This document shows positions 23,775 to 50,194 of a stretch of DNA of 64,000 bases, one piece after another; position 1 is the first letter of the stretch; the number at the start of each line of letters is the position of its first letter. A program made the translations under genes and the position numbers. Under the pieces are notes generated by a model that was not told where the DNA came from, searched no databases, and saw nothing but the letters and a program-made list of their open reading frames with translations. The stretch lies in contig NZ_VTLB01000001.1 of the NCBI RefSeq assembly GCF_020514235.1, forward strand, positions 372,001-436,000. The letters are read 5' to 3'. This DNA comes from Synechococcus sp. MU1617 (lineage in GTDB: Bacteria; Cyanobacteriota; Cyanobacteriia; PCC-6307; Cyanobiaceae).

Positions 23775-23892
23775 AGATCAAAACCGGGTTCTGACGACCT
23801 TAGCGAGAGAAGCAGGGAGCGCCACAGCAAGCGATACCAAGCGTCCAACAACAAGAAGAGGACGGGACAAGGCGGCGACAACGGCTCATAAT

Positions 23893-23905
23893 GAGAATGA
23901 TTCTC
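23893..23905. promoter_or_regulatory. Zur-like box
   Basis: GAGAATGATTCTC, a perfect palindrome inside ATAATGAGAATGATTCTC, 20 bases before the ATG at 23925. It matches the shape of Fur-family boxes and closely resembles the box before znuA at 50176 (TGAGAATGATTATCA). Zur is favoured over Fur because of the zinc-related genes on both sides. Confidence 0.7.
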
Positions 23906-23924
23906 GAATTTCGAGGGGGTTGCG

Positions 23925-24704
23925 ATGGGTCAGGTGTGCCTGATTTCAGGCCCTCCGGGGTGCGGGAAAACAACCTGGGCGCTCCAAAGGCTTCAGCAGC
24001 ATCAAGGCCCCTGCGCCTACCTGCGGCTGAAGGGAGACAAGAAAGCAGGTCTCGAGCAGGGGGCAGACAGCGGAATCGACCTGGCCTGGCTTAAAGACCA
24101 AGTGCCCAGACTTGAAGAGCCGACGCCGTCCAATGGTGCGGAACTGAAGCAGGACAACGATGGGCTGACCCTGATCGAAGTGCAGCAGTTTCATCACCCC
24201 AGCCAGAAGGGCATTGAAGGTCTCGGAGACGACGTTCGCTCCAAGCTGGAGGCCTTGCAGCTGCACCCCGACCAACTGCTGCACTTCGGGCGAGACCCTG
24301 AATTGCCCGCTAAGGACACCTTGGAGTTCAGCAAGCTCGAGGCCTGGCACACCTCCCTTGCCCGTTCTGTCTGGGATCCCAACAGCCTGAGCAGCTTCTG
24401 GTTTGAACTCGTCAACGGTGCCTACGGCGATGTGTACCGAGCCAAAGGCCTGATGAATCTTCCTGACGGGCGGGCATTCTTCTGCAATTGGATGGTTTCC
24501 CAGGAGTCATCCCAGTTCCTGCCCCTGGACACCACAGCACCGCCGCAAGGTCGCCCCAGTCGAACCTCAGAGCTCGTTGTTCAGGGAAAGGCACTCAACC
24601 CTGAAGGCATGCAAGCCACCATCAACGACTGTCTGCTCGCGGATGACGTGCTCGCCATACAGCAACAACAGCTCCAGCAACAACAACCCACATCGCAAGG
24701 CTGA
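23925..24704 (+). CDS. COG0523-like (CobW family) GTPase, divergent
   Basis: 259 residues. Walker A GPPGCGKTTW at residues about 9-18. The C-terminal FWFELVNGAYGDVYRAKGLM resembles the CobW C-terminal domain (GDVxRAKG). The CxCC metal motif and a clear NKxD are absent, and the middle is short and Gln-rich at the end. COG0523 proteins are zinc-related metallochaperones when behind a Zur box, as here. It is the first of three tightly spaced genes (next start six bases on). Role in zinc allocation is inferred. Confidence 0.65.
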   Translation: MGQVCLISGPPGCGKTTWALQRLQQHQGPCAYLRLKGDKKAGLEQGADSGIDLAWLKDQVPRLEEPTPSNGAELKQDNDGLTLIEVQQFHHPSQKGIEGLGDDVRSKLEALQLHPDQLLHFGRDPELPAKDTLEFSKLEAWHTSLARSVWDPNSLSSFWFELVNGAYGDVYRAKGLMNLPDGRAFFCNWMVSQESSQFLPLDTTAPPQGRPSRTSELVVQGKALNPEGMQATINDCLLADDVLAIQQQQLQQQQPTSQG

Positions 24705-24709
24705 TTGAC

Positions 24710-25525
24710 ATGAACCACGCCGTCATCTCCTGTTTGCATGCCAACCTTGCGGCCGTGGAGGCCGTGCTCGACGACATCGACTCCCAGGGCATCCAAACCA
24801 TCACCTGCCTTGGCGACCTTGTCGGCTATGGACCCCAACCCAATGAAGTGGTGGAACTGGTGCGTCAGCGCGAAATTCCCAGCTGCCAGGGGTGCTGGGA
24901 CGAAGACATCATTGACGGTCTGAATGCCTGTGAATGCAGCTATCCCTCCCAGCTGGCGGAACGACGAGGCCATCGCGCCCATCACTGGACAGCCGAGCTG
25001 CTGACGGACGAGAACAAGGCCTTTCTGGCTGAACTTCCAATGACACTGCGGCGCGACAAGCTGCTGTTTGTGCATGGCAGTCCGAACAGTCAGCACGAAT
25101 ATCTGTTGCCTGACATGAATGCTTTTGCGGCCCTTGAGCGGGTGGAAACTGCAGGGGCGGAAACCTTGTTCTGCGGCCACACCCACCAGCCCTATGTGCG
25201 CGAGCTACGGCAGGGGTCCATTCGGGTGAAGGTGCAACAACGCGCTCAAGGCGCACCAACAGAGCAGGAGCTGGAACTGCCGATGCGGCAAATCGTTAAC
25301 GCAGGTTCCGTTGGGGAACCGCGTCATGGCAGCACCAAAGCGACTTATGTCATCCATAACGACAACACCGGAGAGGTGACGATTCGAGAGGTCGACTACG
25401 ACGTCGCCAAAACCTGTCGAGCGATCGTTGATGCGGGCTTACCTGAGGTGTTTGCCTGGAGGCTCAGCCACGGCTTCGAATACGCCGAGCGGGCTGAAGA
25501 CGCCAGCCACGTGTGTGAGCGCTGA
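24710..25525 (+). CDS. Metallophosphoesterase-fold protein with Cys at metal-ligand positions
   Basis: 271 residues with the calcineurin-like motif order: ISCLHAN (6-12), GDLVGYGP (35-42), GCWDED (61-66), VHGSP (121-125) and CGHTH (155-159). In the family these read ISDxHGN, GD, GNHD, HGS and GHTH. Here the first Asp is Cys8 and the bridging Asn is Cys62, with Trp63 replacing the catalytic His. The fold is clear, but ordinary phosphoesterase activity is doubtful; a Cys-containing zinc site is possible. It overlaps the next gene by one base. Confidence 0.8.
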   Translation: MNHAVISCLHANLAAVEAVLDDIDSQGIQTITCLGDLVGYGPQPNEVVELVRQREIPSCQGCWDEDIIDGLNACECSYPSQLAERRGHRAHHWTAELLTDENKAFLAELPMTLRRDKLLFVHGSPNSQHEYLLPDMNAFAALERVETAGAETLFCGHTHQPYVRELRQGSIRVKVQQRAQGAPTEQELELPMRQIVNAGSVGEPRHGSTKATYVIHNDNTGEVTIREVDYDVAKTCRAIVDAGLPEVFAWRLSHGFEYAERAEDASHVCER

Positions 25526-26235
25526 TGGAACGCTGGGCCCTGGTGAGTGGTCTCCAAGGAGACCTCGATCTGTACGAGCAGATTCAGAAGGAGTTAAAGC
25601 AACAGCGGGGTGTTGCCAATCTCTTCGTTCTCGGTGATCTGATCGGATCACAACGCAAGTGCAATGCACTGCTCGAGCGCCTGAGGCAGCCGAAGCGCGC
25701 TGATCTTCAGCCCGACTGCATCTACGGCTGGTGGGAAGAGCAACTTCTGGCGGAGTGTGGTTACCGCGGCGAACGCAAGGCTGAAGCCCTCAGAGCAGAG
25801 CAAGGCGAGGCTGCGGTCGGCGAGCTTCTTGCTGCGGTAGACGCCGACCATCTCAACTGGCTGGCATCGCTGCAATTCGGCTTCATCGAACTCGACTGCG
25901 CTCTGATTCATGGCAGCTCCGCTGATGTCGGCGACCGGCTGACGGAAGACACCTCAGCCCTGGTACTGCTGGATCGGCTGACGCGGCTGGATGTGAACCG
26001 ACTGTTTACGGCGCGCTGTCAGCGTCAGTTCCGACTGGAGCTTTCCGGTGGATCGATCCAATCCCACGTCAAAGACCATGCCGGTGAACAGCAGAGCGAA
26101 CAGGCTGTGCCCAAACGAAGCGTGATCGGCATCGGCGGGGGGAGGCATTACACCCTCTACGACCCCGCCACCGATCACATCGAGTTTCGAATTGCGGGAG
26201 AACCCTCCCATGTTGCGGGTCGAGGTTTTGGCTGA
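25525..26235 (+). CDS. Degenerate metallophosphoesterase paralogue
   Basis: 236 residues following the same layout as 24710-25525 but with most ligands lost: VSGLQGD (8-13) for SDxHGN, GDL (37-39) retained, GWWEE (68-72) for GNHD, HGS (129-131) retained and ARCQ (163-166) for GHTH. Probably a non-catalytic partner of the neighbouring protein. Third gene of the Zur-box-led set. Confidence 0.65.
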   Translation: MERWALVSGLQGDLDLYEQIQKELKQQRGVANLFVLGDLIGSQRKCNALLERLRQPKRADLQPDCIYGWWEEQLLAECGYRGERKAEALRAEQGEAAVGELLAAVDADHLNWLASLQFGFIELDCALIHGSSADVGDRLTEDTSALVLLDRLTRLDVNRLFTARCQRQFRLELSGGSIQSHVKDHAGEQQSEQAVPKRSVIGIGGGRHYTLYDPATDHIEFRIAGEPSHVAGRGFG

Positions 26236-26302: not shown

Positions 26303-26560
26303 ATGGGCGATCACAACCAACAACAGCTCACGGCTCGCGAGATGGTGCGAGCCCACGCCTACCCCGTACTGGCGGCCGTCAGCAGCCTCAGCCTGCTCAG
26401 CATCGCTGTTCTGCTGATCCCGCAAGCCGTCCAAACCCATCGCTACAACCGCTGCATCGATGCACAGATCGCCATGCGGGCCAGCATCAATCCCAAGGGA
26501 GGAACAAATCCCGGCAAGATGAATTACCTCAAAGCCGTCGAACACTGCGAAGGCTTCTGA
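26303..26560 (+). CDS. Small single-helix membrane protein
   Basis: 85 residues from the ATG at 26303 (MGDHNQQQLTAREMVRAHAY). One helix (VLAAVSSLSLLSIAVLLIP), then a domain with two Cys (RCIDAQIAM; EHCEGF) on the far side. It follows the phosphoesterase pair by 67 bases and precedes the DUF3721 gene by four. Function unknown. Confidence 0.6.
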   Translation: MGDHNQQQLTAREMVRAHAYPVLAAVSSLSLLSIAVLLIPQAVQTHRYNRCIDAQIAMRASINPKGGTNPGKMNYLKAVEHCEGF

Positions 26561-26564
26561 ACCG

Positions 26565-26786
26565 ATGCGCGCCATCCAACCGTTATCGGCTCTCAGCTTC
26601 GGCGTTTTGGCCCTGTTGGTGAACCCAACGCCAGGAATGGCCCACGGCAAGGGGCTCTATGGCACCGAAGCCGAAGCCAGGCAGCGGGCGGCTGAAATCG
26701 GTTGCAGCAGCGTTCACGAGAACAACGGTCGCTGGATGCCTTGCAGTGATGAACGGGAACTCCACCAACATCTGCGCAAGCAATGA
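26565..26786 (+). CDS. DUF3721 family exported protein
   Basis: 73 residues. Signal peptide to about residue 26 (LSFGVLALLVNPTPGMA). The mature part HGKGLYGTEAEARQRAAEIG, GCSSVHENNGRWMPC and the helical end match DUF3721, a short marine-cyanobacterial family of unknown role. Two Cys and several His could bind metal. It overlaps the next gene by four bases (ATGA). Confidence 0.8.
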   Translation: MRAIQPLSALSFGVLALLVNPTPGMAHGKGLYGTEAEARQRAAEIGCSSVHENNGRWMPCSDERELHQHLRKQ

Positions 26787-27067
26787 AAGGGTCCAGAACA
26801 ACCAGTCGACAGGCGCGGCGCATCCATCGCTGGCTGGTGCCGATCGCCGCAGCACCGCTGCTGATCACCGCTGGAACCGGCACCCTCTACAGCCTGCTGC
26901 TGGAGAAAAACATTGATGCTTTCTGGCTGCTCAAGCTGCACACAGGACAGTTCGGCTGGCTCAACCTTCAGCCCTTGTACCCAATCCTGCTAGGGGGTCT
27001 CACCATTGTTGTGACTGTGTCTGGGCTGACGATGCTGCTCAGGCCAGCCCGTACGAAAGGGGGGTGA
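26783..27067 (+). CDS. PepSY-associated transmembrane protein
   Basis: 94 residues. RRIHRWLVPIAAAPLLITAG resembles the first helix of PepSY-TM proteins (RxxHRxLG), a second helix follows at about 62-82, and HTGQFGWLN lies between. PepSY-TM proteins often accompany iron or other metal reductases and transporters; this one is a minimal two-helix version. Coupled to DUF3721. It converges on the metallothionein gene. Confidence 0.7.
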   Translation: MKGSRTTSRQARRIHRWLVPIAAAPLLITAGTGTLYSLLLEKNIDAFWLLKLHTGQFGWLNLQPLYPILLGGLTIVVTVSGLTMLLRPARTKGG

Positions 27068-27083
27068 AATCACCCCGACGTCC

Positions 27084-27254
27084 TCACTCCGCGCAACTGC
27101 AGCCGCAGGAACCACTGCCATGACAGGGCTCGTGGTTGGGATGACCGGTGGCACAGGCATCTGAACAGAAACTCTGGCCATCGCGAACGACTGCTTGGGA
27201 CGCCTGCACCTCACAGGTGCAACTCGGACAGGCACAGGGCGTAGCGGAAACCAT
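27084..27254 (-). CDS. bmtA: Bacterial metallothionein
   Basis: 56 residues with ten Cys (7, 9, 12, 14, 30, 34, 44, 50, 52, 54) and three His, in the SmtA/BmtA pattern: CACPSCTC at the N-terminus, FCSDACATGHPNHEPC in the zinc-finger-like middle and GSCGCSC at the end. It binds and stores zinc in the cytosol. It lies 17 bases from the convergent PepSY gene, next to the Zur-box-led set. No clear Zur box was seen in its own upstream region. Confidence 0.93.
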   Translation of the reverse strand: MVSATPCACPSCTCEVQASQAVVRDGQSFCSDACATGHPNHEPCHGSGSCGCSCAE

Positions 27255-27539
27255 CACAAGCAATCAACTCGCTGTTGTATAGGTCAAAAAACAGAAGATC
27301 CCAGGAAGAACACACCATTCCCACACACGATTTATGCAGAAATAGCGACAACGGTTCTCATCACATCCAGACATTTAGCAGTAAAGGGTTGACCCAAGCA
27401 ACAAGAACAGGCAAAAAGAACAAAACAAAGAAAGGTCAATAATCACGGCGCAACAAACCATATAACACAAGCAGAAGCAATTAAATCCACGGGAATCAAT
27501 CGGGGAATAGAAAATAATCAGAGGAGCGCCTCAAAGCCA
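27255..27539. other. AT-rich intergenic stretch
   Basis: Upstream of the metallothionein (minus) and of 27540 (plus), so it should hold both promoters. Noticeably richer in A and T than the flanks; this continues to about 28900. I see no strong hairpin or clear operator. Confidence 0.4.
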
Positions 27540-27937: not shown

Positions 27938-28513
27938 ATGAACACTAAGCACAACTATCGAGACAAGGAAGGGAGGCCAATATTCCTGAATTCGTCCGAG
28001 ACATTCCCCCTAGACAGACCTCACGCCGGAGAAGAAATAGAAATAATAGTAAAGGGTGGGGCCATAAGGATTGCGGCCAACCAATACAAGAATGCAGAAG
28101 ATATGACTTTAGCCTTTGCATGTAGAGCAGACATTTTCAAATTCCAATATCCAAGAGATCTAGAAATCACGATAGAGGCAGTAGCAGACACAACTTGTTT
28201 TGTTAAATCAAGAAGTAAAACAAAATCCAACACCAGCGACTCCATCATGGACTGGATAATTCAATTGCATATCGTGAGGCATGAGGCAAACCTGGAAAGA
28301 CGACTGATGAAATTTTTTGAGTTACTTATGCACAGACTAGGTAAGCGAACATCAGAGGGGTTGCTACTGGAGCACACACTGCCTCATGCACGCATTGCCG
28401 AAATCGTTGGATCGACTAGATCAACAGTATCAAGAACGATTAGCAAGCTCAGAAAGAATCAACAGATTTATATTGATGAATTAAAAAATCAGATGATTTT
28501 GCCGCCAGATTAA
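27938..28513 (+). CDS. Crp/Fnr-type transcription regulator
   Basis: 191 residues. The N-terminal part is a reduced cyclic-nucleotide-type beta roll; the C-terminal part has the helix linker (RHEANLERRLMKFFELLMHR) and a Crp HTH: LPHARIAEIVGSTRSTVSRT and ISKLRKN. Shorter than Crp (about 210), with no cAMP-binding residues visible. AT-rich codon use suggests acquisition from outside or relaxed selection. It stands near the porin at 28903; a second Crp-type regulator (33754) stands near the other porin. Confidence 0.8.
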   Translation: MNTKHNYRDKEGRPIFLNSSETFPLDRPHAGEEIEIIVKGGAIRIAANQYKNAEDMTLAFACRADIFKFQYPRDLEITIEAVADTTCFVKSRSKTKSNTSDSIMDWIIQLHIVRHEANLERRLMKFFELLMHRLGKRTSEGLLLEHTLPHARIAEIVGSTRSTVSRTISKLRKNQQIYIDELKNQMILPPD

Positions 28514-28618: not shown

Positions 28619-28902
28619 GATTCCAGGAAATCATTCCACAACAATACTGCTCTTCTCAAGGCTGCGAACAACGTGCAGAGTAACAAAAGACACAAATTAT
28701 CAAGTCATCTAATCCAAGCCAAGTGAGACCTATAAGGGTTTAGAACGCTTGCCTACATCCGAAGAATCAGCAAAGACTCGAATCAAAAGCACTTGTAGAT
28801 GTATAGAAAGCTACTTGAGGATGAAGTAAACGAGTAGCAGGCGACACATCAGAAGAGCAAAATAGAACTGCCCGTATTGGGCTTTCCTGTGTGAGGAATT
28901 CA

Positions 28903-30462
28903 ATGAAGCTTTTCCAGCAACTGCTGGTGGCTCCTGCTGCCCTTGGCCTTCTGGCCACCGGCGCTAATGCCGCCGAGCTGAACATCAACGGCGTTTCTGA
29001 TTACGCGGCCACATCCAGTGGCAACAGCCTTGATCAGGTCACCAGCGTCACCCAATTCTCCGACGTCTACCCCACCGACTGGGCCTATCAGGCTCTGGCC
29101 AACCTGGTGGAGACCTACGGCTGCGTCGCCGGCTACCCCAACGGCACCTTCCGTGGCAACCGGGCCATGACCCGCTACGAAGCGGCTGCCCTGCTGAACG
29201 CCTGCCTCGACCGGATCACTGAAGTGACCGACGAGCTGCGTCGTCTGCTCAAGGAATTCGAAACCGAGCTGGCCATCCTCAAGGGTCGCGTTGACGGCCT
29301 CGAGGCCCGCGTTGGCGAACTGGAAGCAACCCAGTTCTCCACCACCACCAAACTGCGTGGTCAAGCGGACTTCTTTATGGGCGCCGTTAAGTACGACGAC
29401 CGAGATGAGTGCAACGAGGAAGTAGCCGGAGCTTGCGAGAGCGACGGATTCAACTTCTCGTACCGCTACACCCTGAATCTGGACACATCCTTCACGGGTA
29501 AGGATCGGCTGTACACCCGTCTGCGCACGGGCAACATGAAGAACGTCTGGACGGAATCAGATTCCTATCTGTCCGATGCCAAGAGCGGTGATAACACCCT
29601 GAAGGTGGACAAGCTCTGGTACAGCTTCCCAATTGGGGATGAGTTCAAGGTCACCGTTGGTGCGTTGATCGAGAACTACTACATGATCGAAACGCCCACC
29701 CGTTACAAGCCAATCCTCAAGGCCTTCAAACTGGGTGGATACGGTGCAGTTCTGGGTGCCAGCACCGGTCAAGGCTTTGGTGTGCAGTGGCGTCAGGATG
29801 TTGATCCTGGTGATGCAGCCTTCAACATTGCTGTCAACTACGTTGCCGACGGTGGTGACGGTGCCACGAGCAATTCAGAAAAAGGCATGTTTGGTGAAAA
29901 CACCGATGCTTATCTGCTGAGCCAAATTGGCTACGGCAACCGTAAGTGGTACCTCTCAGCGCTCTATGCCCTGAAGAATGCACGCCAGCCTGATGGGTCA
30001 TCGACCGCCAAAGCAGCCATGGGTTACTCAACCCCAACTGCTAAGAACTTGGCTCACCCCCTGCACGCCGTCGGCCTACGCGGCTACTGGTCACCTGAAG
30101 ACAGCGGCTTCATTCCCACCATCAGTGCGGGTCTGGACTTCGGCTGGGCTGATAGTGAGTACTACGGCAATGCAGAAGCCGTGAAGGGCTGGATGGTTGG
30201 CCTGAACTGGAATGATGCCTTCATGGAGGGCAACAAACTGGGACTGGGCTTCGGTTCCTATTCCAGCTACGCCACCGAGATTCGTGACCGGCCCAATGGC
30301 GGCGACCAAAACTTCGCCATCGAGGCTTACTACGATTTCGCTGTAACCGACAACATCACCGTTACTCCCGCAGTGTTCTGGGTTGATGATGCCAAGGGCA
30401 AGGATCAGATTGATGGTGCCAACAAGTTTGGCGGTCTTGTAAAAACGACCTTCAAGTTCTGA
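28903..30462 (+). CDS. Outer-membrane porin with SLH domain
   Basis: About 519 residues. Signal peptide (LLVAPAALGLLATGANAA), then an SLH domain (FSDVYPTDWAYQALANLVET; YPNGTFRGNRAMTRYEAAAL) that binds the cell wall, a coiled coil (DELRRLLKEFETELAILKGR), and a C-terminal OprB-like beta barrel ending in KTTFKF (terminal Phe). The ATG at 28903 has GAGGAA five bases upstream. The first 437 bases are nearly identical to the porin at 34623, but the barrels differ. Located among iron genes. Confidence 0.92.
   Translation: MKLFQQLLVAPAALGLLATGANAAELNINGVSDYAATSSGNSLDQVTSVTQFSDVYPTDWAYQALANLVETYGCVAGYPNGTFRGNRAMTRYEAAALLNACLDRITEVTDELRRLLKEFETELAILKGRVDGLEARVGELEATQFSTTTKLRGQADFFMGAVKYDDRDECNEEVAGACESDGFNFSYRYTLNLDTSFTGKDRLYTRLRTGNMKNVWTESDSYLSDAKSGDNTLKVDKLWYSFPIGDEFKVTVGALIENYYMIETPTRYKPILKAFKLGGYGAVLGASTGQGFGVQWRQDVDPGDAAFNIAVNYVADGGDGATSNSEKGMFGENTDAYLLSQIGYGNRKWYLSALYALKNARQPDGSSTAKAAMGYSTPTAKNLAHPLHAVGLRGYWSPEDSGFIPTISAGLDFGWADSEYYGNAEAVKGWMVGLNWNDAFMEGNKLGLGFGSYSSYATEIRDRPNGGDQNFAIEAYYDFAVTDNITVTPAVFWVDDAKGKDQIDGANKFGGLVKTTFKF
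28918..29354 (+). repeat. Near-identical porin 5' segment (plus copy)
   Basis: About 437 bases matching 35737-36173 on the other strand with only a few differences by eye. It covers signal peptide, SLH domain and coiled coil. Identity stops abruptly at the start of the barrel (after TTKL). Confidence 0.85.
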
Positions 30463-48126: not shown

Positions 48127-49194
48127 TTAGAAGGTGAATGTCACGCCAGTGCCGACATGGTGCTGCCAGCCTTCACCCCAGCCCGGCGCATCTTCCCAGC
48201 TGTAGGTCTGCTGCCAGTGGACAAACAGCGTTGCATCACCGACGGGAACCGAAAGTTCGATTTCACCAGCCAAGTCTGTGCGCGGATCCAATCCTGCGTA
48301 GCTGCCGGGGACATAGAAACGAGGGCCAGCCTCAATCATCAAGGAGATTTCATCACCGCCGAATGTGAATCCCAAGCCCACACGAGGATCGGTGTAGTTG
48401 CCCACATACATTCCATCAGACTCCCAACCCTGACGGTGATCAACTGATAGGTAAACACCATTCACCAGATCCTCGATACCATCGCCGAGGGCAAAGTTCA
48501 CATCTCCATCACCAAGAGCCCAAGTCACTTTTGCCCCAAGCTCATTCTTCAAGCCCTGAATATCCTCACCTTGATCCTTAGTGACGTAATAAGGATTCCA
48601 AGAAAGAGCAATGCTTAAGCGGTCATTGGGTGCATAACGGGCCTGAAGAAAGCCCTTGATATCGGTACGTTTGAAGTCGGTGTCATGGCTGTGGTCATGA
48701 CCATGATCATGACCTTCGTGATCATCATGATCGTCTTCGTGATCATCGTGATCCTCTTCATGGTCATCATGATCTTCTTCATGGTCGTCATGATCTTCTT
48801 CATGGTCATCATGATCTTCTTCATGGTCATCGTCGTGATCTTCTTCATGGTCATCGTCGTGATCATCGATATGAACCTTGCCGTAAAAGTGTTCAGCCTC
48901 TCCCCAAACCAAAGCAGGCCCAATGGCAGCTTCGATCGCGAAAGAGCCGCCATTATCGAGGCCCCACTCAAAAACGCCACCAAACATGCCATCAATGGCG
49001 TAATGCTTGGGATCTCCCTCAAGGTTGATGTCAAAACCACCATGCCCTTCGATGGTGATGATGGGAGTGAAGTCGAATTCACCGGCCTCAAGAGACTCTC
49101 CACCACCACCATGGGAGCCATGGGCCTCGGCAGGTGACATCGAGGCGAACGGGCTCAACAGAAGAGCCAGAAGAGCAAGACGTGAACGGAACAT
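48127..49194 (-). CDS. Outer-membrane-type barrel protein with His/Asp/Glu repeats
   Basis: About 355 residues from the ATG at 49194. Signal peptide (RLALLALLLSPFASMSPAEA), a His/Gly start of the mature chain (HGSHGGGG), a beta-rich middle, then about 60 residues of repeats built on HDDHEED and ending GHDHGHDHSHD. More beta strands follow, ending GVTFTF with a terminal Phe as in outer-membrane barrels. The repeats would bind many Zn ions. It lies 52 bases after znuA on the same strand and so is expected to be Zur-controlled. A zinc-capturing outer-membrane role is inferred. Confidence 0.75.
   Translation of the reverse strand: MFRSRLALLALLLSPFASMSPAEAHGSHGGGGESLEAGEFDFTPIITIEGHGGFDINLEGDPKHYAIDGMFGGVFEWGLDNGGSFAIEAAIGPALVWGEAEHFYGKVHIDDHDDDHEEDHDDDHEEDHDDHEEDHDDHEEDHDDHEEDHDDHEDDHDDHEGHDHGHDHSHDTDFKRTDIKGFLQARYAPNDRLSIALSWNPYYVTKDQGEDIQGLKNELGAKVTWALGDGDVNFALGDGIEDLVNGVYLSVDHRQGWESDGMYVGNYTDPRVGLGFTFGGDEISLMIEAGPRFYVPGSYAGLDPRTDLAGEIELSVPVGDATLFVHWQQTYSWEDAPGWGEGWQHHVGTGVTFTF
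48690..48880 (-). repeat. In-frame tandem repeat coding HDDHEED units
   Basis: Imperfect direct repeats of about 21 bases (ATCTTCTTCATGGTC on the plus strand), four to seven in a row. They encode the metal-binding insert of the barrel protein. Copy number could change by slippage without loss of frame. Confidence 0.85.
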
Positions 49195-49246
49195 GAGACG
49201 AGAAGAGATGGAAGAGAAAAAGATCAGAGAGGAAAGCGGCGTTATG

Positions 49247-50164
49247 TCACCGGATCGATGACCACTGCGCATTCAATGCATTGGCTCCAGCGGTGTCGCA
49301 GGAACCGCCTTGGCCATTGACGATCGTGCAGACGTTGAGGGTCGCCGTCGAAACAGCATTGCGACCGGCAGCAATGCCTTCCCCGTAGAGCGGTGTTGCC
49401 GCAATAGGCAAGCCGGTGCTCTTGCTGATGCGCCTCAGAGTTTTGTTCGGGGTAGCCGCAGGGGAAAAGATGGTTTTGGCACCAGAAGCCTTCACCTCTT
49501 GGGTGATTCTTTTGAGACTGGAGGGCCGCAACACGCCACCGGTGGTGTGGCTGTCCAACATCGCGATCTCAACCAGTCCAAAGCGATCCGCAAGATGGCT
49601 GTAGGTCTTGTGATCGGTCACCATGACCCTCTGCGCTGAGGGCAAAGAACCAAACTGATTGGCCTCCCAGCTCTGCAGAGCCTGAAAGACAGCCACAGCC
49701 TGGGCGGTGCGTTGCTGCAAGGCCGCACGATCACTGGCCGGCAGAACGGGGGCCAGAGAGCGGGAGATGACCCGCACCATCGCAGCGGAATTGGCCGGAT
49801 CATGCCAAACGTGGGGGTCGCTGCCTTCGTAGGACGGCAGGGCGACTTCACCGACGGCCACTACTGCTCCCGGTGAGTTGAGTTTTTTGGCGGAAGGAGT
49901 CAGTCCGAAACCGATGTGCAGAACCAGATCACTCTTGGCGATCTGGCTGCGATCACTGGGCTTCAAGCGATAGGAATGGGGGTCACCACCAGGAGGGATC
50001 AGGCACGTGACCGAGGCGGCACCGGCAGCCAGGGTCTTGGTGAGATCGCACAGCGTGCCATCGACGGCCACCACCACAGGTTGAGCCGCATGGGCCGGAA
50101 CAACTGCAGCTCCAATGGCCAGAGCAAGACTGACCCCCGCCGATCGAGCCAAAACAGGACGCAT
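49247..50164 (-). CDS. znuA: Zinc ABC transporter, substrate-binding protein
   Basis: 305 residues from the ATG at 50164. Signal peptide (SAGVSLALAIGAAVVPAHAA), then PPGGDPHSYRLKPSD, DPHVWHDP and VTDHKTYSHLADRFGL, which carry the His ligands of ZnuA proteins. The His-rich loop found in many ZnuA is missing; the next gene supplies a His-rich protein instead. The Zur box lies just before the start. It delivers zinc to ZnuB in the periplasm. Confidence 0.9.
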   Translation of the reverse strand: MRPVLARSAGVSLALAIGAAVVPAHAAQPVVVAVDGTLCDLTKTLAAGAASVTCLIPPGGDPHSYRLKPSDRSQIAKSDLVLHIGFGLTPSAKKLNSPGAVVAVGEVALPSYEGSDPHVWHDPANSAAMVRVISRSLAPVLPASDRAALQQRTAQAVAVFQALQSWEANQFGSLPSAQRVMVTDHKTYSHLADRFGLVEIAMLDSHTTGGVLRPSSLKRITQEVKASGAKTIFSPAATPNKTLRRISKSTGLPIAATPLYGEGIAAGRNAVSTATLNVCTIVNGQGGSCDTAGANALNAQWSSIR

Positions 50165-50175
50165 GGACGGCCCAG

Positions 50176-50194
50176 TGAGAATGATTATCATTTT
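50176..50194. promoter_or_regulatory. Zur box between znuA and znuC
   Basis: TGAGAATGATTATCATTTT, a near-perfect palindrome about GATAATCATTCTC, 12 bases from the znuA start. Typical cyanobacterial Zur site. It can control both divergent units. Confidence 0.85.

Follow-up and report, generated by a model that had tools for sequence, protein, structure and literature searches.

The window, a 64,000-nucleotide stretch of the Synechococcus sp. MU1617 genome, contains three consecutive genes on the plus strand, here called g1, g2 and g3. The first (23925..24704) encodes a short P-loop protein with a CobW_C domain, assigned with Pfam, sequence alignment and hhalign; the second (24710..25525) encodes a Cys-substituted protein of the metallophosphoesterase (MPE) fold, assigned by its matches to Pfam Metallophos_2 and PDB 3rqz; and the third (25525..26235), whose nature had previously been overlooked, encodes a degenerate MPE paralogue of g2, as seen with tblastn, hhalign and a residue table. 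The genes are as tightly packed as the initial annotation described, with g2 and g3 overlapping in TGATG, and the palindrome GAGAATGATTCTC that it placed ahead of them is present at 23893..23905 (unstranded). This palindrome, read as a Zur box, abuts the -10 element of a sigma-70-like promoter, GGGACA-17-CATAAT (23864..23892, plus strand), and because it lies directly 3' of that promoter, a bound repressor would cover the transcription start. The promoter is the only promoter-like match in the 3.8 kb between 23700 and 27500, for which 0.8 matches are expected by chance, and a comparable layout of promoter and box is seen upstream in several genomes of the genus. A box that overlaps or abuts its promoter is the arrangement expected of a Zur-controlled operon, and it is found at the g1 promoter. 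Two further boxes lie in the window: a variant, GACAACGGTTCTC (27347..27359, unstranded), upstream of the metallothionein gene bmtA (27084..27251, minus strand; PF02069, 3.6e-14), and a strong one, GAGAATGATTATC (50177..50189, unstranded), located between znuA on the minus strand and znuC-znuB on the plus strand and used as the reference site.

In the whole 2.32-Mb genome, GANAATNATTNTC occurs at two sites, namely the g1 promoter and the znuA/znuC intergenic region. The wider pattern GANAAYNRTTNTC, which is GANAATNATTNTC with a complementary change allowed at positions 6 and 8, occurs at five sites, against one for a reversed control pattern. Three of the five are the promoters of g1-g2-g3, bmtA and znuA/znuC, all within the window; the other two (C3:60284 and C6:6591), with no zinc-related neighbour among the flanking ORFs, were taken as chance matches. 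Among 93 distinct regions upstream of g1 homologues, 67 contain a match to at least nine of the ten fixed positions of the box, compared with 2.8% of dinucleotide shuffles; the palindrome is far from a chance match. The lowest-scoring upstream regions belong mostly to freshwater genomes in which a COG0523 gene comes ahead of g1 and the box stands in front of that gene, at a greater distance from g1. These genomic and upstream counts back the earlier identification of the palindrome as a Zur box. In Synechococcus WH8102, a Zur box has been described in the same znuA/znuC arrangement (synw0971/synw0970), and bmtA is a Zur target (PMC9337993). The genome encodes three FUR-family proteins as candidates for Zur. 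Putative Zur control of g1-g2-g3 is strongly supported, we infer that Zur occupies GAGAATGATTCTC, and the operon is almost certainly part of the zinc regulon.

Published data on a zur deletion in strain PCC 7002 also bear on this operon: hemB-II, folE-II, G0131 and G0132 were up in the mutant, while G0129, annotated as a "phosphoesterase", and G0130 were not raised (PMC4628125). The plasmid pAQ7 (L183, 28717-30488) has no g2. On it, G0131 covers g1 up to residue 147, G0129 encodes a C-terminal remnant of g3, and between the two lies G0130, a foreign ORF of 235 residues without relation to the module, the old tags having been matched to reading frames by gene order and by the annotations quoted in that study (PMC4628125). 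Because G0131 rises in the zur mutant, the g1 promoter is Zur-responsive in PCC 7002, and the lack of response of G0129 and G0130 is explained by their position beyond the disruption of the module. The broken copy accounts for an oddity in the zur transcriptome of this strain and warns against testing the module there.

Within the genus, 18 of 34 genomes have g2 with g1 in front of it, a nineteenth having a g3-type match only. Across the order, 100 of 299 genomes, from 24 of 35 genera, carry g2, Prochlorococcus and Cyanobium being among these genera, and g2 matches at 1e-93 or better were obtained in 44 sampled genomes of the class outside the order, with g1 and g3 beside g2 in most of the class loci that were read. 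The range of g1-g2-g3 is the whole class, including freshwater and filamentous cyanobacteria, and extends beyond marine Synechococcus. Plasmid-borne modules occur in Picosynechococcus PCC 7117, Dolichospermum DET69 and Trichormus variabilis ATCC 29413, and no g2 relatives were found in viral contigs. Neighbours of the module in the class comprise folE, hemB, thrS, hisI, COG0523, znuA and FAD oxidoreductase genes, including the zinc-stress paralogues folE2, hemB2, thrS2 and hisI2; several of these neighbours are known cyanobacterial zinc-stress genes (PMC6103462). Of 19 stretches read from the class, 16 have Zur-like boxes near the module, and in freshwater relatives a full COG0523 gene with CxCC is followed by the module and then by the znu genes. 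The link to zinc initially proposed for the gene set is borne out by the Zur boxes and by the znu and zinc-stress genes around it. The in-frame TAG codons of one locus (L018), which stand at positions with Gln in its relatives, look like sequencing error, not recoding.

The product of g1 matches Pfam CobW_C at 2.4e-7 and aligns by hhalign with a full COG0523 protein over the CobW_C part (E 5.6e-5), where it has the invariant block WDPxSL..FWFELVNGAYGxVYRAK; its P-loop reads GPPGCGKT. It combines the Walker A motif and the CobW_C domain by which COG0523 GTPases are recognized, and shares both P-loop and CobW_C with the COG0523 zinc metallochaperones ZagA/YciC, ZigA and ZNG1; its operon has a Zur box and often adjoins a true COG0523 gene and folE. 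In contrast to these chaperones, g1 is about 80 residues shorter and lacks the His-rich loop, the NKxD guanine motif, which is absent from the g1 alignment, and the metal motif CxCC, expected between the two Walker motifs A and B, which is absent in 19 of 19 aligned g1 sequences and present in the true COG0523 proteins that neighbour g1 homologues. The label "COG0523-like GTPase" given to g1 at the outset therefore holds for the P-loop and CobW_C, but is too strong for a protein without CxCC and NKxD. An AlphaFold2 model of g1 scored 48.6 and was discarded.

Membership of g2 in the MPE (calcineurin-like) superfamily is evident from its fold: it matches Pfam Metallophos_2 (PF12850) at 8.8e-23 and PDB 3rqz at 6.9e-28, and the best Foldseek matches of its model are the MPEs 3rqz, SapH, MJ0936, VPS29 and YfcE. 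The ligand set of catalytic MPEs, DxH, GD, GNH(D/E), H and GHxH, is incomplete in g2, in which D8 is changed to Cys (codon 24731..24733, plus strand) and N62 and H63 of GNH to Cys and Trp (24893..24898, plus strand), with H10, D36, H122, H157 and H159 kept. C8, C62 and W63 are thus present as originally described, but the equation of C62 with a bridging Asn was mistaken: in the MPE fold, the GNH Asn binds the second metal as a terminal ligand, and the two metals are bridged by the GD-motif Asp, which in g2 is D36. Mapped onto g2, the ligands of this fold are C8, H10, D36 and H159 for one metal and D36, C62, H122 and H157 for the other. Two such sites of thiolate, His and Asp would be well suited to zinc. 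By its sequence, g2 is the descendant of a phosphate-cutting enzyme in which one hard ligand per metal has been swapped for a thiolate, and zinc is probably what the rebuilt pocket binds.

Among 109 distinct g2 sequences, 89 of 271 positions are invariant, including C8, H10, D36, C62, W63, D64-E65-D66, C74, C76, H122, C155, H157, H159, C236 and C269. The co-occurrence of C8 and C62, suggested earlier as a check, holds in all 109, and because outgroup relatives have D8 and N62 at these positions, the two cysteines are derived and were fixed together; g2 homologues with the ordinary D and N and a poor Zur box, which would have spoken against the initial proposal, were not encountered within the g2 clade. 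The reading of W63, where a catalytic His would stand, as a sign of lost hydrolysis did not survive the comparison. The outgroups have Y, T or H at position 63 (Tyr in relatives from ars operons), and the Ap4A hydrolase SapH, whose structure is solved, has its own GNWED aligned at the C62-W63 segment, so W63 is no sign of lost catalysis and was dropped as proof of it. A zinc finger formed by C59, C62, C74 and C76 was likewise dropped, C59 being Val or Thr in some genomes. The AlphaFold2 model of g2 has a pLDDT of 65 and a pTM of 0.71; confidence is low at residues 61-85 and 124-143, and the loop that holds the cysteines scores under 50.

The MPEs of the YfcE, MJ0936 and SapH types (PF12850; PDB 3rqz, 3qfm, 1s3l, 1su1) have the same fold as g2 and share with it the GDxVGYG, HGSP, GHTH and NxGSVGxP motifs, and in SapH, as in g2, the last residue of GNx is something other than His. 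They differ from g2 in that its first-ligand Asp and GNx Asn are both invariantly Cys, that C236 and C269 are additional invariant residues of g2, that its C-terminus ends in a conserved tail, FAWRL...HVCxR, and that it belongs to a Zur operon beside a dead paralogue. The nearest non-cyanobacterial relatives found, at 34-37% identity, are MPEs of ars operons in Bacteroidota and Actinomycetota (L179-L182), which have in common with g2 the C74-x-C76 segment (24929..24937, plus strand), invariant in g2, mostly lack the catalytic His and also adjoin a metal-responsive regulator (ArsR); in contrast to g2, they have the ordinary D8 and N62, arsenic and not zinc neighbours, and no g1 was seen with them. 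These relatives stand beside ArsR, ArsM and ACR3 genes, and two occur in tandem in L180.

The relationship of g3 to g2 is seen by tblastn (~1e-12) and hhalign (97.5%, E 5.5e-12); g3 is present across the class and forms a single clade separate from g2 in the tree, one L162 row labelled g3 in the tree and residue table being a g2 duplicate that was disregarded. At the equivalents of C8, H10, C62 and H157, g3 has mostly G, E/K/Q, W and R, respectively. Most metal ligands are lost in every member and only the D36 and H122 equivalents are kept throughout, so the canonical metal pair cannot be held by g3. In L012, L053, L054 and L057, g3 lies 5-8 kb from g2 or is incomplete, and the g2-g3 junction seems to be a place of insertion.

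The reading that we tentatively prefer is that g2 may hold zinc tightly and, together with g1 and g3, keep zinc enzymes or zinc-stress paralogues supplied in zinc deficiency. When zinc is present, Zur would sit on the box beside the -10 element and block transcription; when zinc falls, Zur would leave the box, and g1-g2-g3 would be expressed together with the importer of zinc and with whichever zinc-stress paralogues the genome has. Zinc would be held by g2 in its thiolate-tuned pocket, g1, which has no metal site of its own, would contribute nucleotide-driven switching, and the dead paralogue g3 would serve as a scaffold for a g1-g2-g3 unit, which would keep the zinc enzymes or zinc-stress paralogues charged. 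We count in favour of this reading the Zur-box sites, the zinc-related neighbours, the induction in PCC 7002, the fixed C8 and C62, the absence from g1 of the CxCC of full COG0523 proteins and the loss of most ligands in g3. Counted against it are the retained H10, D36, H122, H157 and H159, which would be compatible with a catalytic centre, the separation of g3 from g2 in several genomes, and the published Zur regulon of WH8102, a strain that may or may not carry the module, in which no gene of the g1, g2 or g3 type is listed (PMC9337993). In addition, a full COG0523 metallochaperone is already encoded in the same genome and may make another unit for zinc delivery superfluous. It is conceivable, if rather doubtful, that the three genes specify a split zinc-transfer machine under Zur control, in which a metal site of the COG0523 type has moved from g1 into the two-thiolate pocket of g2 and is held by the dead g3. 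Zinc is among the scarcest nutrients of surface seawater, and g1-g2-g3 may bear on how picocyanobacteria manage with so little of it; the module is widespread in these organisms and offers a clear case of an MPE metal site that went from hard to soft ligands and was then frozen.

The main rival of the zinc-supply reading is g2 as a phosphodiesterase, a thiol or zinc switch and a stand-in enzyme being weaker. If g2 were still an enzyme, it would be produced under zinc deficiency as a phosphodiesterase that uses zinc in a Cys-tuned dinuclear centre and cuts a nucleotide, for example a dinucleoside polyphosphate or an alarmone of zinc stress, with g1 and g3 as its regulatory subunits, which we regard as possible and, on balance, unlikely. 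Among its closest solved relatives are SapH, with its GNWED segment, and two phosphodiesterases, MJ0936 and YfcE; g2 retains five of seven metal ligands as well as the N197-x-G-S segment, and its share of invariant positions resembles that of an active enzyme. The gene folE is also a frequent neighbour, and in Bacillus, FolE is served by ZagA, a zinc chaperone that takes its name from activation by ZTP (PMC13339975). However, the change of two ligands to Cys is unusual for a hydrolytic MPE centre, and an enzyme that itself requires zinc would be an odd one to induce when zinc is short.

It is improbable that g2 is instead a zinc- or thiol-redox-responsive regulator, in which C8 and C62, both located at a single metal centre of the fold, would bind zinc or form a disulfide and thereby switch the g1 NTPase or another partner, so that g2 would be a sensor and not a carrier. 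The seven invariant cysteines of g2, of which C8, C62, C236 and C269 are absent from the sampled outgroups, agree with such a role, as does the dead paralogue in the same operon, which would fit a signalling complex, and one of the fold matches of g2, VPS29, is a scaffold with the MPE fold. Yet Pfam revealed no DNA-binding or signalling domain in g1, g2 or g3, and transcriptional zinc sensing is already the task of Zur. Still less probable is that g2 takes the place of a housekeeping zinc enzyme when zinc is low, as HemB2 and ThrS2 do in the same regulon, with the cysteines adapting g2 to another metal or to the retention of scarce zinc. Such paralogues do surround g2 in many genomes, and ThrS2 is still zinc-dependent and may receive help in capturing and keeping the metal (PMC4787780). 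But the genome of the window has no close housekeeping paralogue of g2, the sole other match being g3, and stand-ins usually shed their need for zinc, whereas g2 has gained ligands of the zinc type. Fur and Zur boxes of cyanobacteria resemble each other. A Fur box or a chance match, with an operon unrelated to zinc, can nevertheless practically be set aside in view of the three zinc promoters among the five genomic sites of this sequence class, the znu, folE2, hemB2 and thrS2 neighbours and the induction of the g1 fragment in the zur mutant of PCC 7002 (PMC4628125).

A literature search for MPEs in connection with Zur or COG0523 returned no paper that names or studies g1-g2-g3, though a 2012 list of the Anabaena Zur regulon may hold tags of these genes; a search for "phosphoesterase" returned the PCC 7002 paper alone (PMC4628125). 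The WH8102 regulon (znuABC, bmtA) has the same box between znuA and znuC, and here bmtA also adjoins g1-g2-g3; the PCC 7002 regulon (znuABC, hemB-II, folE-II) includes genes that neighbour the module in Picosynechococcus. Neither regulon paper describes g1-g2-g3 as a unit.

Several other features of the window lie near these genes. In WH8102, bmtA is activated by Zur, so that an activation site (27084-27359 region) and a putative repression site would stand 3.5 kb apart. Between g3 and bmtA (26303-27067) are three small genes, one encoding a DUF3721 protein, one a weakly PepSY_TM-like protein and one unassigned. A short Crp-family regulator with a PtrA/NtcA-like C-terminus (27938-28513) adjoins a SomB porin of the iron-uptake type (28891-30462). 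On the 3' side of znuA, a gene on the minus strand (48127-49272) encodes a His/Asp-rich protein with repeats of the HDDHEED type, which is kept beside znuA in L077 and L087 and whose position is like that of synw0972.
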